Virus record (IMG/VR): IMGVR_UViG_3300036850_000052
Coordinates: 1-22,863 of that record
Strand: one strand, 5' to 3'
Origin: a virus
Length of the DNA stretch: 22,863 nucleotides
Part shown: piece after piece, positions 4,045-21,117 of the stretch
Position numbering within the stretch: position 1 is the first letter of the stretch
Layout of the letters: the number at the start of each line of letters is the position of its first letter
The notes under the pieces: generated by a model
What the model was told of the DNA's origin: nothing
Seen by the model: the letters and a program-made list of their open reading frames with translations, nothing else
Databases searched by the model: none
Made by a program: the position numbers and the translations under genes

Positions 4045-7000
4045 TTGCGCCAGCCCGAGCCGTTGGCCGCCTCATACTGCTGGATCAAGTACACCGCCTC
4101 GCGGCCGATTTCCCGCGGGTGCGACAGCGGCGTCGCGTTGATCGTGATCTGGTAGGTGTTCCCGCCGCCCATGTCGCCCGCGGCGGTCCCGGGGATGACC
4201 GTCTCCGGGCCACGCTCGGCGAAGCTGTACGTGTCACCGGACGCGCCGACGCCGAACACCGGCTCCCGGAGCACCCCGCCGCCGGCCATCGCCCAGTGGT
4301 CGTGCGCGTTGCCGCCGGCGAAGTTGTGCTGCCGGAACACCGCCCCGGAGTAGGAGTGCCGGGCCCCGTTGTGGATGTTCAGCTCGTTCCACGGGGTGAT
4401 CAGTTCCTTCGTCCGCGACTTGTACATGTAGTTGATCCACTCGGCGAGCGGCCGCGACGGCGGCCAGTCCGTGGCCCGCTTGAGCGCGTGGTACGACAGC
4501 GCCCCGGACAGGGTGTGCGCGCCAGGCCGGTAGCCGGAGATCAGATGCAGGCCCGGGAACGCGGCCCGGACGACCTGCACCATGAAGTTGAGGGTCTGCC
4601 CGCCGGGCGGCAGCGCGGGCACCGGCATCTTCGTCTTGCTGGTGGTGTACGGGAACGGCATCACGACACCACCGGCCGCGTAGCCGGGCCAGCGGCCGGT
4701 GCGGTTCATGTAGTCCAGCGCGCCGGGCTTGGCGGCCTCGATCTGCTGCCGGGACTCCTTACGGACCACGAACTCGTCGGCGTGCACCACACCGGCCGGC
4801 TTGTACTTCGGGCCCGGCCCGGTCCAACCGCCGCCGGCGAAGAAGTGGCCGAGCTCGCGGTTGGCCTCGTTGACGCTGATGCCCTGCTTCGCGGCCTGCT
4901 GCGCGGCGAGCAGGTGCCGCAACTTGGTCGCCGTGTCCGCGTAGCCGGTGGTGTGGATGTGCGCGGTCCAGTTGCCGTCGACGCCCTTGAGCTTGTCCCA
5001 CAGGGTCTGGGTGTTGGTCTTCGCGTCCTTCATGCCCGGTTGGTTGATCTTCGTATCAACCTTTGGCGGGATCACCTTGTAGGAGCCGAGCAGCTGGTCG
5101 ACGGCCTTCTTTGAGAACCCGGCCTGCAGCATGCTCTTACGCAGACCGGCGATGTCCTTGGTGTACTTGCCCTGCGCTTGGTCCAGGGTCCAGCCGTGCC
5201 GCAGTCGGGCCTCTCGCAGATCGTCGATCGCGGCAAGTTGATCCAGCACCGCGGACCGGTTCTTGCGGCCCTCGGCACTGTTCAGGCTCAGCGACCGGGC
5301 GCCGGACTTCAGCTCCTTGCCCAGGTCGACCATGCCGTTGCGCAGCGCGATCTCGGCCCGGTCGAGGCTCATCTGCGCGCCGAACAACTCCTTGACGGCG
5401 TCGTTCATCTTCTTGATGTCCTCGGCCGACTGCGCGGCCGCGCCGCCCACACCCTTGACGCCGGCCTTCGCACCATCCAGCGCGGCCTTCGCCTTATCGG
5501 ACATCGGTCCGACCCAGTTCAGCGAGTCGGACAGCTTCTTCGTCGAGGTGCCAGCCGTCTCAACCGCCGCCGCGTAGGCCGGGAACTTCTTCCGGACTTC
5601 ATCTACAGTGACGCCGTTGACCGCCAGCACGCTGCTCAGCCGGGCGAACGTTGCCGCAGCGCCGGCCGTGTTGCCTGAGGTGACCATCTGCGCCAGGGAC
5701 TGGTCGACGGCGGTGATCCGCTCCTGCGTCTTGGCCAGGGACTCGTTCGTGCCCTTCAATCCGGGCGCCAATGCTTCCAAGCCGGTCTCGAGATGCTTGA
5801 CCGCCATGGTCCGGCTGTTGTCATCGTCGGCGAGGAACTTGAACTTCCCCTTCAGCGAGTCCATGTCCGAGCCGAGGACCCGAGCCGCCTCGCCGGAGAG
5901 TTGGGCGCCGTTCGCCCACCTCTCGAGCCCGAGGGCCAGCGCATCGGTTTGCGGGTTCAGATCGTCCTGGAACGAGCTGACGACCGCCTGGGCTACCTGC
6001 AGGGCGATGAATGCTGTGGCGGCCTTGCCGGCGGCGGACGCTACCCGGCCCAAACCCGTCGCGGCCTTCTCGCCGGCCGGACCCATCGCATTGAGCTGCG
6101 CGGCGGCTTCGGCGATGCCCTTGCGGACCTTGATGAATCCGGCCAGCGCCAGCAACGATGCGCCGCCGACCCCGGCCAGCACCGTGACCGACGAGCCGAC
6201 CGCCGGGGGCAGACTGATGAATTGGTTGACGAGACTATTCAGGCCCTTGGTCAGCAGCCGTATGCCGCTGTTCGCGCCGGACCCGGACTCGATAGCCAGC
6301 GTCTCGAGCGAGCCCTTGAGGCGTTCGATGTCACCGGCGAGGTTGTCGGTCTTGATCCGCGCGGTCTCGGCCGCGTAGCCGGCGTCGTTGGTCTTGTCGA
6401 TCCAGCCCTGGATCCCGGCCGTGCCCTGCTTGTACAGCACGTTCGCCGCGCGGATCGCGTCAGTGCCGAATATCTGCGCCAGCGCCGCATCCCGCTGCGC
6501 CTGAGTCAACCCGCCCAGCTTCGTCTGCAACTGGCCAGCCAGGTTGGTGATACCGACGAAGCCGCCCTGCGCGTCGTAGGCATTGATGCCCAGCTGCTTC
6601 ATCAACTCTTTGGTCTTGTCGGCCGGGTTCGCCAAGCTCAGCAACATCTGCTTGAAGCTGGTGCCAGCGTCGCTGCCGATCAGCCCGGCCGACGCGAACG
6701 CCGCCAGCGTCCCGGTCGTGTCCTCGACGCTCAAGCCGAATTGGCTGGCGACCAAGCCACTCTGCTTGAGCGCGAAGCCCATATCGTGCACCGAGCCCTG
6801 CGCCTTGCCCGCCGCGGCCGCGAGCAGGTCCGCAATGTGTGGGACCTGGCCGCCAGAAAGGCCGAATTGGGTCATCGCCGTGGCCGCTGTCTCGGCCGCC
6901 TCACCGACGTCGAGCTGGCCGGCCGCGGCGAGGTCTAGGGCACCTTTCAGGCCGCCGCCGAGGATGTTCGCCGTGGACACGCCGGCCTTGGAGAGTTCCT

Positions 7001-10158: not shown

Positions 10159-10164
10159 GGACGC

Positions 10165-10758
10165 ATGGCCGAACAATGCTCAGACTTCGAATGCGATCGC
10201 CCAGTCGACGCTCGCGGCATGTGCCCGATGCACTATCGGCGCTGGTATCGGGCTCTCGGCCGAGGTGGACGCCATTTACGACTCGCGCCGATGGATCGGT
10301 TCATGAGCAAGGTCGACAAGGCGGGACCCATCCCTGACTACCGGCCGGATCTCGGGCCGTGCTGGTTGTGGACCGGTTTCATCGCGGACACCGGCTACGG
10401 CAAGTTCACAGTCGGCGCAACGTCACCACGTGGTGCGCACCGGTGGCTCTGGGAACAGATCAATGGTCCAGCGTCATCGAAGCTGCACATCGACCATCTG
10501 TGCCGGGTGCGACGCTGCGTCAACCCCGACCACCTCGAGTTGGTGACCCACTCGGAGAACATTCGCCGGGGCGCGCATCCTCGGTACAACTCGCTCAAGA
10601 CCCATTGCCCGCAGGGCCACCCCTACGACGAGGCGAACACCTACTGGAACGTGAAGGGCACATCACGAAGCTGCCGGACATGCGAACGCGAACGGAACCG
10701 ACGTCGCCGCGCTAACCGGGAATCGATCTCAACACATATTGATCGATCTGGTCCATGA
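10165..10758 (+). CDS. HNH homing endonuclease (HNH_3-type), antisense to late genes
   Basis: This 197-residue free-standing nuclease has an N-terminal Cys/His cluster (C5, C10, C20, H23). A CWLWTGFIADTGYGKF segment follows, then the beta-beta-alpha metal finger with H108/D110/H111 (KLHIDHLCRVRRCVNPDHLE), N120 and H123. A C-terminal zinc ribbon (CPQGHPYDEANTY...CRTC, 148-173) and an Arg-rich tail end the protein. The pattern is that of phage HNH_3 homing enzymes that cut one strand or both and spread their own gene. It is read against the late operon from its own leaderless promoter. Its 3' end overlaps the tail terminator gene 3' end by 47 bases. The ATG at 10165 is chosen from the promoter spacing. 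Confidence 0.92.
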   Translation: MAEQCSDFECDRPVDARGMCPMHYRRWYRALGRGGRHLRLAPMDRFMSKVDKAGPIPDYRPDLGPCWLWTGFIADTGYGKFTVGATSPRGAHRWLWEQINGPASSKLHIDHLCRVRRCVNPDHLELVTHSENIRRGAHPRYNSLKTHCPQGHPYDEANTYWNVKGTSRSCRTCERERNRRRRANRESISTHIDRSGP

Positions 10759-17809: not shown

Positions 17810-18679
17810 TCAGCGGCGAGACAGCCGCTCACGCTGCCACTCGAGCAGCTCATCGAGCGCCGGGGTTACCAGCGCCGGAAGCTCAGCGGCCAGCGCCGGC
17901 CGAACACCCTCACGGACGCTCAGCACTCGCGCGCCGGCGTAAGCCTCGTCGGAGGTGAACGCCAGGTGATCGACGAACGCCTGCTTGATGCGCCGGCTGC
18001 GGCTGCGCCGATCCAATTCCTGACCGGACCCGCGAACAGCGAACCCCACGGATACGCCGATCGCATCGTCCTCGGCTAGCGCCAGCGTGTCATGGCCCAG
18101 ATCGGTGTTCGCGATCTTGACGGCGGCGACGAGCCCCTCAGCCCGAGACGGGTGAAAGCTGAGCACCTTGCCGACGGTGAGCCGCTTGTCATGATCCCGG
18201 TTGGCGCGGACCCGATTCGGGCGCTTCTCGATCCCGTCGAAGGCGTGCGAGTCGAACGATTCCCGCCACATCTCTCCCCGGTACTCGACCATGGTCGGCT
18301 CGTCGTACGGCACCGCGATCACGTCGATGATCCGCTGCGGGATGTCGATATTTGCGACGTTCGACTCGCGGAACTCCAACGGCGCACGCGTCATCTCATC
18401 GTCGACCGCGAACGCGGCATCGGGGTCGGCTCGGTTCTCGGTGACTTTGATGCCGAACTTCTTCGCCGCGGCGCGGATCTTCGGCATGGCCTTGTCCCCG
18501 AACGGTGACTGCGGCGCGCGGGCCAGCGCATTGCGCACGTGCGCGGCGTCGTGGATCGGGAAGTGCCGCAGCGACCGCGGCACGGTCTTGCCCTGGTCGT
18601 CCTTCTTGCCGCCGCTTTCAATGTACGCAAAGGCAGAATCCGGGAGATCGTTGATTGCTGAGGACGACATCTCTGCCAT
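17810..18679 (-). CDS. Prohead protease (HK97/U35 type) with N-terminal DUF domain
   Basis: This 289-residue protein matures the prohead by cutting the capsid delta domain. Residues about 8-78 (INDLPDSAFAYIESGG ... FPIHDAAHVRNALAR ... KIRAAAKKFGI) match a small conserved phage domain often found in or next to head proteins. The serine protease domain spans about 100-250. H163 in NRDHDKRL and S210 in DAIGVSVGF fit the catalytic His and Ser of the U35 family. The C-terminus is Arg/Glu-rich. The order portal, protease, capsid is standard. Two HNH genes separate it from the portal gene. The start at 18679 is only 41 bases from the divergent HNH gene start. Confidence 0.9.
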   Translation of the reverse strand: MAEMSSSAINDLPDSAFAYIESGGKKDDQGKTVPRSLRHFPIHDAAHVRNALARAPQSPFGDKAMPKIRAAAKKFGIKVTENRADPDAAFAVDDEMTRAPLEFRESNVANIDIPQRIIDVIAVPYDEPTMVEYRGEMWRESFDSHAFDGIEKRPNRVRANRDHDKRLTVGKVLSFHPSRAEGLVAAVKIANTDLGHDTLALAEDDAIGVSVGFAVRGSGQELDRRSRSRRIKQAFVDHLAFTSDEAYAGARVLSVREGVRPALAAELPALVTPALDELLEWQRERLSRR

Positions 18680-18708
18680 GTGGACGGTCAGCCCCCAAAC
18701 AGTTCGTG

Positions 18709-18714
18709 TAGGCT
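18709..18714 (+). promoter_or_regulatory. -10 element of a leaderless promoter for the plus-strand HNH gene at 18721
   Basis: TAGGCT fits TANNNT and ends six bases before the GTG at 18721, so the transcript would start at the start codon. It is preceded by TCGTG, close to the TCGCG before the -10 of the HNH gene at 10165. No Shine-Dalgarno is present. The promoter lies in the 41-base gap shared with the divergent protease gene. Confidence 0.6.
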
Positions 18715-18720
18715 AAATCG

Positions 18721-19239
18721 GTGTCCGCCAAAACCTGTCTTCACTGCTCCGGGCCGATCGCGTCGCGTGGACCAAAGAGAGATGCGACCGTCAAGTTCTG
18801 CAGTCGGGACTGCGCCTTCGGTCACCAACGCGCTCGCTCCGCCGCAGATGGAACGGGCAGGCTGACCAAGGACTGCGAGACATGCGGGACGCCGTTCACG
18901 TACTACAAGTCGGTCCGGCCGCTCGCCGCCTACTGCTCCATAGGCTGCAAATCAGTCGGACATAGCAAGAAGCTCACTGGCAGGATCTTGGACGTCTATG
19001 GACGCGCCGCCACGTTCCGCAAGGCCATCCGTACGAAGTTCCTCGACCGCTGTGCGATCTGCGGCTGGGATGAAGCACCGAACGACGTCGCTCACATCGT
19101 GGCCAAGAAGGATGGTGGAGACGACTCGCTAGAAAACGTCGTGATGCTCTGCCCGAACCACCATCGCCTGTTCGACCGTGGCGAGATTCCTGTTGCGGAC
19201 ATCATCGCCGCCAGGTTGGCAATCGTTGTGCACGACTAG
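18721..19239 (+). CDS. HNH endonuclease with two zinc fingers, antisense to late genes
   Basis: The 172-residue protein starts at GTG. Two Cys4 zinc-finger-like modules come first (C6, C9, C27, C31 and C52, C55, C72, C76). The C-terminal HNH nuclease domain reads CAICGWDEAPNDVAHIVAKK with C111, C114 and H125, then ENVVMLCPNHHRLFD with N139, C144, H147 and H148. This is a free-standing homing-type nuclease; the fingers probably guide DNA binding. It is read against the late operon from its own leaderless promoter and converges on the minus-strand HNH gene, leaving seven bases between the stops. Its GC by spot count is about 60%, below the flanking structural genes. Confidence 0.93.
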   Translation: MSAKTCLHCSGPIASRGPKRDATVKFCSRDCAFGHQRARSAADGTGRLTKDCETCGTPFTYYKSVRPLAAYCSIGCKSVGHSKKLTGRILDVYGRAATFRKAIRTKFLDRCAICGWDEAPNDVAHIVAKKDGGDDSLENVVMLCPNHHRLFDRGEIPVADIIAARLAIVVHD

Positions 19240-19241
19240 CC

Positions 19242-19257
19242 GTCGGTCACGACCGAC
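19242..19257. other. Palindrome between two convergent HNH genes
   Basis: GTCGGTCACGACCGAC reads as a 6-bp stem with a CACG loop on either strand and spans the stop of the minus-strand HNH gene. It could form a hairpin in both converging transcripts. No U-tract follows on either strand, so terminator function is uncertain. Confidence 0.5.
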
Positions 19258-19284
19258 CAACACCCGTCAACGCCTGCGCAGCCA
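19247..19284. repeat. 38-bp direct repeat, distal copy (3' end of HNH gene)
   Basis: This copy matches 19828-19865 at 36 of 38 positions (differences at the 10th and 14th bases). It encodes the last residues and stop of the HNH protein, AAQALTGVGRS, against AAQALTGGGRS for the portal. The two copies are 581 bases apart start to start. Confidence 0.95.
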
Positions 19285-19831
19285 TCTCCTGCTTGAAGAT
19301 GCCGATCCAATCCGGCCCACCAGCCACGACCCAATCCAGGGCTTCCTGCTCCTGGCCCGGTTCAAAACTCGGCTGATATCGGTGGCACGAGCCACAGAGC
19401 GGAGCAAGATTCTGTGGCCCATCAAGGCCATCGAATACTCGGGTAATCAGGTGTGCTCGCTCTAGGTATGAACTCGATTGTTGCCAGCGCTCCCGTTCCC
19501 AGACTTCGCGAGCACGGGCAAGCTCGCGACGAACCGACTTCGCCGACTCTTCAAAGACCGCTATCCGACGTGCATAACGCGGGTGTCTACCAACGGCTAG
19601 CGCTTCCAGCATCACATCGATGGCGCTAATCGGATCAGCAAGATCCGGACAAGCGTCAGATTGGACTGGGATGTGTCTTCTGCAACCGAAGCAATGCGGG
19701 TTGGCCAGATCAACGTCGAAGGGTTCCCCGCGGTCATGCCAGTACCGCGCGATGGCGTACAGCGACGGCATCTGTCGCGGGCCACGATCACGAGAACCAA
19801 TGATCATCGCCCCGGATGACATCTCGCTCAC
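19247..19831 (-). CDS. HNH endonuclease inserted at the portal gene 3' end
   Basis: The 194-residue protein, read from a GTG that overlaps the portal stop (GTGA), has a CFGC pair at 47-50. A long Arg/Glu-rich helix (RRELARAREVWERERW) follows, then the HNH core ERAHLITRVFDGLDGPQNLA with H127 and N141, and LCGSCHRYQP with C146, C149 and H150. Internal ATGs at 19822 or 19807 are alternative starts. Unlike the other two HNH genes it is co-oriented with the late operon. Its final eleven residues repeat the portal C-terminus because the gene is bracketed by a 38-bp direct repeat. GC by spot count is about 57-58%, lower than the neighbours, consistent with a mobile gene. Confidence 0.92.
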   Translation of the reverse strand: MSEMSSGAMIIGSRDRGPRQMPSLYAIARYWHDRGEPFDVDLANPHCFGCRRHIPVQSDACPDLADPISAIDVMLEALAVGRHPRYARRIAVFEESAKSVRRELARAREVWERERWQQSSSYLERAHLITRVFDGLDGPQNLAPLCGSCHRYQPSFEPGQEQEALDWVVAGGPDWIGIFKQEMAAQALTGVGRS

Positions 19832-19865
19832 GACCGGCCACCACCCGTCAACGCCTGCGCAGCCA
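19828..19865. repeat. 38-bp direct repeat, proximal copy (3' end of portal gene)
   Basis: The copy covers the last codons and stop of the portal gene. With its partner at 19247-19284 it frames a 581-base unit carrying the HNH gene. Recombination between the copies would remove that unit and leave the portal reading frame and stop intact. Confidence 0.95.
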
Positions 19866-21117
19866 CCAGATCCCCACCATCCTCGCCATCGTCGTCGGGC
19901 ACGTCCGCGTCGATCAGTCGCTCCATCACCCGAATCTCCGCCGCGGTCAACGCCCCGAGCGCCGCCAACTTCTCGTACGCCTGCGCGCGCTCGAGCAGAG
20001 CCGGCCGCGAGTACTCGTCCCGGTTCAACTCCACCGACTGCCCGCGGGGCAGCGCCCACCCGGACAGTGCCGACATCACCCGCACCGCTGCGGTCTTCAG
20101 ATACCGGCGGTCGTGGAAGTCGAACACCTGGGACACGTTGGAGTAGGTCATCGACTCGCCTGTCGGCAACCCCAGCAGGAACGGGGGAACGCCGAGCAGG
20201 ACCGAGATCCGCGCCTCGTTGTACTGCAGCAGGTCCGTAAGGCCCATCTCGGCCGGAGACAGCTGCAACTTGTTGGCCTTCAGCCCAGAGGACAGGACCG
20301 CCGGTTTGAACGGCTCCCCGAAGGCCCCAATCCGGGACGCCCACCACCGGTCGAGCAGCTCGTTTGCCTGCGTCGGGGTCAAGGGCTGATCGGTGTCCAG
20401 GGTGTATTTGGGCACCGCGCCGCTCGCGGCGAAGTCTTGCGCGTACCGGGCCAGCATGGACGCCGCGACCAGCCGGGTACGCCCGGAGTCCAGCGGGCCG
20501 ATGCCGCGCGGCGTGTCGACCGTCGACTTGTAGCGGATATGCAGCATGTCGCCGGTGACATCCAGGCTGCCGATGTTGTACTCGCGGCCAGCCTTGCCCA
20601 TCTCCACGTTCACCAGCGGCGGCGGGATCACCCGGAAGTTGTACGGCCAGCCGTCGGCCGAGCGGGACATCGGCAGGACGAACGCCTCGCCGAGCTGGAA
20701 GTCCCAGAAACATTGCTTGGCCATCTCCGACCAGTCCGTGTACACGTCGGGGTCGGGGTTGCCCATCCACGCGGTCGCCGGCAGCACCCGACCGCCCCGG
20801 GTCCGGTAGACGGGCATCGCCGACAGCACCGACGAGTTCAGGTCCAGCGCGGCCCACGCGACGTCGACGAGTTCGTCGAGCTTCTGCCCGAGCCCGCCCT
20901 GACTCCACTGGGGGGATGCCCAACTGGCCGGCCACCCGTCCCACGGTGACGGCACGATCGCCGCCATGCGGTTCTGCACCGGTCCCGTGGCCGGCTCGAG
21001 TTCGACCCCGTTCGGGTCGCCCGGCCGGTAGCCGGGGCCGACCGAATCCGGATCGCCGACCGTGGAGTTGGGGACGGCGCCAGCGCCGGTCAACCATTGC
21101 CAGAAGCCCATAGCCAC
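19828..21117 (-). CDS. Portal protein (HK97 family)
   Basis: This 429-residue protein forms the dodecameric ring at the packaging vertex. The sequence has LDELVDVAWAALDLNSSVLS, the WPYNFRVIPPPLVNVEMGKA segment, and DMLHIRYKSTVDTPRGIGPL, which matches the conserved LHIR...GxSPL region of HK97-type portals. The clip/stem region ERxS-like EARISVLLGVPPFLLGLPTG is equally typical. A C-terminal Asp/Glu run (DADVPDDDGEDGGD) leads to AAQALTGGGRS. Length fits the family (about 400-450). The gene starts four bases after the terminase stop. Its 3' end is duplicated after the HNH gene that follows. Confidence 0.92.
   Translation of the reverse strand: MAMGFWQWLTGAGAVPNSTVGDPDSVGPGYRPGDPNGVELEPATGPVQNRMAAIVPSPWDGWPASWASPQWSQGGLGQKLDELVDVAWAALDLNSSVLSAMPVYRTRGGRVLPATAWMGNPDPDVYTDWSEMAKQCFWDFQLGEAFVLPMSRSADGWPYNFRVIPPPLVNVEMGKAGREYNIGSLDVTGDMLHIRYKSTVDTPRGIGPLDSGRTRLVAASMLARYAQDFAASGAVPKYTLDTDQPLTPTQANELLDRWWASRIGAFGEPFKPAVLSSGLKANKLQLSPAEMGLTDLLQYNEARISVLLGVPPFLLGLPTGESMTYSNVSQVFDFHDRRYLKTAAVRVMSALSGWALPRGQSVELNRDEYSRPALLERAQAYEKLAALGALTAAEIRVMERLIDADVPDDDGEDGGDLVAAQALTGGGRS

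Follow-up and report, generated by a model that had tools for sequence, protein, structure and literature searches.

A putative HNH nuclease gene at the portal-protease overlap of a viral contig, framed by a duplication of the junction

The window, by which we mean the whole of the 22.9-kb IMG/VR contig analysed, is from an actinobacterial-type phage and encodes terminase, portal, prohead protease and capsid proteins on its minus strand, and between the portal and protease genes it carries a free-standing gene with an HNH motif (hereafter HNH1). Our analysis points, with moderate confidence, to the insertion of HNH1 at a hotspot formed by the overlap of the portal and protease genes, accompanied by duplication of about 52 nt of the junction and probably achieved through one-sided, partly homologous repair of a break. 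The features of this region, which include a second HNH gene (HNH2), are the following:

19828-21117, minus strand: portal gene (429 aa), matching PF04860 (E=4.9e-37) and phrog_12.
19814-19865, minus strand: copy A of the junction (52 nt), made up of the last 38 nt of portal including its stop and 14 nt of protease start; 51/52 identical to positions 6253-6304 of the related locus L002.
19247-19831, minus strand: HNH1 gene, with an LERAH..N..CxxCH motif, a Pfam HNH match below the cut-off (E=0.0062) and distant relatives.
19285-19813, minus strand: inserted block of 529 nt with low GC3, absent from L002.
19243-19284, minus strand: first part of copy B, comprising the portal tail and GTGACCGA and encoding the C-terminus and stop of HNH1; 39/42 identical to L002.
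18674-19242, no strand: second insertion, which carries HNH2 and splits copy B; the L002 alignment stops at 6294 and resumes at 6293, a 2-nt overlap.
18721-19239, plus strand: HNH2 gene (172 aa), matching PF13391 (E=4.2e-10) and phrog_1271.
18662-18673, minus strand: second part of copy B (GAGATGTCGTCC, protease start region); 12/12 identical to L002 6293-6304.
17810-18679, minus strand: prohead protease gene, matching PF04586 (E=2e-6) and phrog_80.

An earlier note, made from the sequence alone, had reported that the last 38 bases of portal recur at the end of HNH1, and this repeat is real. On the minus strand of the window, 19243-19284 and 19824-19865 form a direct repeat (39/42 identical) with a spacing of 581 nt, of which the part running up to the stops of portal and HNH1 is identical at 36/38 positions; both frames, portal with 429 aa and HNH1 with 191 aa when read from its ATG, share the ending AAQALTG(G/V)GRS. 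Such a match was obtained in 0/100 dinucleotide shuffles, which rules out a chance origin. Convergence of the two tails on a gene end rich in Shine-Dalgarno (SD) sequence might be considered, in that LTGGG encodes an SD conserved across the family, but it is refuted by an identity that extends over 38-42 nt and includes bases outside the SD (GCTGCGCAGGCG), and we assign it a negligible probability. The size of 38 bp holds for the contiguous part common to both copies, whereas comparison with the empty site of L002 showed that the full duplication is 52 nt (L002 6253-6304) and consists of the last 38 nt of portal together with 14 nt of protease start (GTGAGCGAGATGTCATCC). In the DNA alignment of the window to L002 the portal side matches up to 6304, copy B corresponds to 6253-6294, and on the protease side the match starts again at 6293, with the HNH2 insertion lying between the two parts of copy B.

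Relatives of this region were gathered, 10 by a portal query and many more by a portal profile; among cultured phages, those whose portals are related (at about 50% identity or below) have mainly Mycobacterium and Microbacterium as hosts. In L002, whose portal is 92% identical, portal leads directly to protease via a GTGA overlap and the sequence is present once. The junctions of L004 and L005 are likewise empty, with portal running straight into protease, and alignment of the portal-protease junctions placed a single copy at the same position in L002, L004, L005 and L019, all of which lack HNH1. The AAQALTG tail is absent from the HNH1 homologs found elsewhere (in Gordonia phages, a chromosome and L140). 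Both results run against the refuting observations named in the note and bear out the proposal that HNH1 was inserted, with duplicated target sequence on either side of it. Its landing place is not portal itself, as had been suggested, but the 4-nt GTGA overlap behind that gene, and the start of protease forms part of the duplication. A group I or II intron or an intein was rejected, the insertion lying after the portal stop and yielding no Rfam match, in agreement with the earlier statement that no intron is involved.

Because both the 3' end of portal and the beginning of protease lie within the duplication, HNH1 draws its start signals from protease and its stop from portal: it opens with the codons of the protease start, GTG AGC GAG ATG TCA TCC, and closes with the codons and stop of the portal end. 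Translation could begin at this GTG (19831-19829), which overlaps the portal stop and gives 194 aa, or at the ATG at 19822 (191 aa), of which the former appears more likely. The protein displays C44-x2-C47, ERAH124, N138 and C143-x2-C146-H147, residues that are invariant between it and its Gordonia phage, L092 and L140 relatives. This conserved motif and the paired Cys-x2-Cys predict an HNH nuclease of the His-Me finger kind; the Pfam HNH match scores 17.1 bits, below the cut-off, and an AlphaFold model built from three sequences is poor (pLDDT 47). With a GC3 of 0.58, against 0.83-0.91 in portal, protease, capsid and terL, HNH1 is a foreign gene in its composition. Searches of IMG/VR, GTDB genome contigs, plasmids and PDB recovered no close relative of HNH1. 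Its distant relatives occur in Gordonia phages, one actinobacterial chromosome and the viral contig L140, and share with it the core CFxC...LERAH...N...CxxCH; in HNH1 the Cys pairs lie about 60 residues further apart. The chromosomal relative was the one strong match, alongside two marginal ones, among 395 genomes sampled from the class of a metagenome-assembled genome (MAG) bearing a related portal; in the Gordonia phages Murp, William and PrincePatrick the relative adjoins a serine integrase.

Computed pairing suggests that the portal tail is probably also the ribosome-binding site of the next gene. Its LTGGG is usually written ACxGGAGGTGG in relatives, and pairing of the tail with the 16S 3' end averages -10.2 kcal/mol across 23 relatives, compared with -2.5 for the median of the background; the corresponding values are -7.0 for both copy A and L002 and -4.1 kcal/mol for copy B. 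An insert at the overlap spares both neighbors only if the ribosome site is re-supplied at the end of the insert, and because the tail doubles as the SD of the following gene, keeping a copy of it behind the insert makes functional sense. The weaker SD of copy B fits HNH2 having parted this copy from protease. The HNH2 insertion, which is on the opposite strand, splits copy B of the junction with a 2-nt overlap, whereas the protease part of copy A is uninterrupted by it, which indicates that copy A stems from an allele lacking HNH2. In L006 a reverse-strand HNH_3 gene (1673-2167) ends 3 nt past the portal stop, in the same place and orientation as HNH2 of the window.

The course of events that we favor is as follows. 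A foreign free-standing HNH ORF would have entered the 4-nt GTGA portal/protease overlap in an ancestor or donor allele devoid of HNH2, and with its entry about 52 nt of junction sequence would have been duplicated. Copy A would have preserved the portal end and would now provide the ribosome site and start codon of HNH1, while copy B would give HNH1 its last codons and stop and would originally have re-supplied the SD and start of protease. The insertion and duplication, the foreign composition, the empty sites and, through computed pairing, an SD at the end of portal are evident from the sequences. We infer that the repair relied on homology on the side of portal and on an illegitimate join at the opposite side, where a recipient end, cut or resected, that lay about 38 nt within portal was joined to the end of HNH1, and that the duplication was kept because it leaves the translation of both essential neighbors undisturbed. 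HNH1 may have made the break itself, though other ORFs have entered the same junction with no obvious nuclease; HNH2 could have split copy B later, or might already have been present in the recombination partner. One-sided illegitimate repair of double-strand breaks is documented in the intron homing of phage T4 (PMC2988022), and homology-facilitated illegitimate recombination is known in bacteria (PMC3240628).

Alternatively, HNH1 could be a homing element that cut the end of portal with the nuclease it encodes, leaving the repeat as a footprint of cleavage and repair that marks the target. HNH genes do recur at the junction (HNH1 and HNH2 in the window and the reverse HNH_3 gene of L006), free-standing homing nucleases adjoin essential genes (PMC10448857), and homing repair may leave rearranged flanks, as in the loss of 35 bp from Omega gene 51 (PMC3706429). 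In its insertion polymorphism at a conserved site, empty in L002, L004 and L005, HNH1 is in keeping with a free-standing homing gene, and it resembles the T4 mob and the cluster J HNH genes in being an HNH ORF amid essential late genes, polymorphic in presence and foreign with low GC (PMC2988022, PMC3706429). However, of two cluster J HNH insertions one was precise and one lost 35 bp of target DNA (PMC3706429), whereas at HNH1 52 nt are duplicated and the ORF uses the start and stop signals of both neighbors. Furthermore, the free-standing homing nucleases known from phages usually cleave at a distance of hundreds of bp (PMC2988022), and cleavage by HNH1 is putative. The same repeat architecture also surrounds an ORF of 53 aa in which no nuclease motif was seen by eye, at the portal/protease junction of L043 (IMGVR_UViG_3300037478_000161), a case found by scanning all loci for portal-end repeats. 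This ORF starts at GTGA, ends in EGGRS and its stop, and lies between exact 19-nt repeats (AGGTGGCCGGTCGTGACGG), of which the empty relative L022 has a single copy. It forms a 164-nt unit and differs from HNH1 in this and in the missing motif, its insertion being independent of that in the window. Hence, a nuclease copying its own target, as the earlier note envisaged, is not needed, and we consider the homing origin of the repeat possible, if on the doubtful side. A paper on a Xanthomonas phage HNH gene was set aside as a precedent, no conserved flanks being reported in it.

Further ORFs have been gained at this junction, with at least six unrelated ones in relatives beginning exactly at the portal/protease overlap. 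The inserts of L135, L034, L028 and L039 have no long repeat, and most other junction inserts carry their own SD, again without a long repeat, which indicates that duplication is one route among several rather than obligatory. A scan of IMG/VR with the portal-tail pattern yielded no further contig in which the motif occurs twice in exact form. It seems quite unlikely that HNH1, the 53-aa ORF and a Cys-rich ORF of L043 all reflect one recurrent mechanism by which phage operons would gain ORFs of unrelated origin at 4-nt stop/start overlaps, with overlap and SD copied on both sides; inserts arising by such a route would begin with the start of the downstream gene and end with the tail of the upstream gene. 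The Cys-rich ORF (about 74 aa; L043 97-560) has a start, ATGGACCTGACCGAC, that recurs at the start of the next gene as a repeat of 15-18 nt, and a degenerate HNH remnant follows. In L142 (Catdawg) a methyltransferase and three glycosyltransferase genes (4227-6979) lie between portal and protease, and HNH genes are found upstream of terS as well as between terminase and portal.

The two copies in the window bear marks of more than one lineage, which makes a seam between relatives a serious rival, albeit one that we hold to be rather unlikely. The repeat would then mark an unequal join, in or near the 38-nt homology, of one phage contributing a portal end with HNH1 and another contributing a portal end with HNH2 and protease. 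The portal part of copy A is that of L002, while its protease part TCATCCGG is like L019 and the resident protease is like L002; in copy B, GGTCGGTCG is as in L019 and CCGA as in L004. The differences between the copies thus match different relatives (L002, L019 and L004), and the protease of the window is mosaic, but so few differences could represent drift in an unconstrained copy. Two lineages may therefore be involved, and the duplication, instead of being the product of one event, may be a seam left by recombination. In the protease mosaic (17810-18380) identity to L002 is 87-98% over the first ~300 nt and about 54-74% over the rest; portal and capsid of the window are near 90% identical to L002, unlike the 3' part of protease.

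A small self-restoring mobile unit that excises through recombination between its repeats was also proposed. Such recombination is topologically possible and would leave portal and its stop intact, but no excised form of the window phage came to light and there are no other signs of a dedicated element: the unit contains no integrase or recombinase and no inverted ends, and no second location of HNH1 with repeat ends was found in IMG/VR, GTDB contigs, plasmids and the sampled genomes. Moreover, since HNH2 has broken copy B, excision would leave the junction with protease unrestored. The idea of an element that excises or restores itself accordingly finds no support and appears very improbable. 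A DNA transposon or mycobacteriophage MPME was rejected as well, there being no inverted repeats pairing the unit ends, no transposase and no second site. The MPMEs are similarly small insertions (about 0.4-0.6 kb) with one ORF, but their termini are inverted repeats and 6 bp are gained at the target (PMC3029335), neither of which the HNH1 unit shows.

A closer parallel to the junction-duplicating insertion that we favor is provided by genes 43-46 of the cluster C1 mycobacteriophage LRRHood, a 1.35-kb segment with 29-bp direct repeats near a gene end (PMC3029335), which we reproduced in L144 (4043-4071 and 5399-5427, spacing 1356). There too extra genes lie between direct repeats near a gene 3' end, with a single copy in relatives, although the segment has four genes including a repressor and no HNH. 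Judged by its sequence, HNH1 fits this type of gene gain flanked by direct repeats. It is a case of ordinary phage gene gain and not a new class of element; what it adds is that the duplication gives the insert the start of one neighbor, and the stop and ribosome site of the other. Phages are seldom observed fitting new genes into tightly overlapping essential operons while translation stays intact; here, close relatives show a single junction empty, filled and doubly filled. The ends of the insert reveal which signals have to be duplicated for harmless insertion, namely the SD in the upstream tail and the start of the downstream gene, and this rule can be surveyed across large phage collections.

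In the reverse complement of L114, a 98-aa ORF (5323-5619) lies exactly at a start codon by comparison with L109, with flanks that are 98-99% identical and a 5-nt TCATG repeat. The 276-nt insertion in L114 with an apparent 17-nt overlap was discarded as a further duplication, re-alignment showing an exact insertion at ATG with only a 5-nt TCATG repeat. Within the window itself, a third HNH gene (10159-10758, plus strand; PF13392, phrog_826) is located between two minus-strand ORFs, in the orientation opposite to the structural genes.
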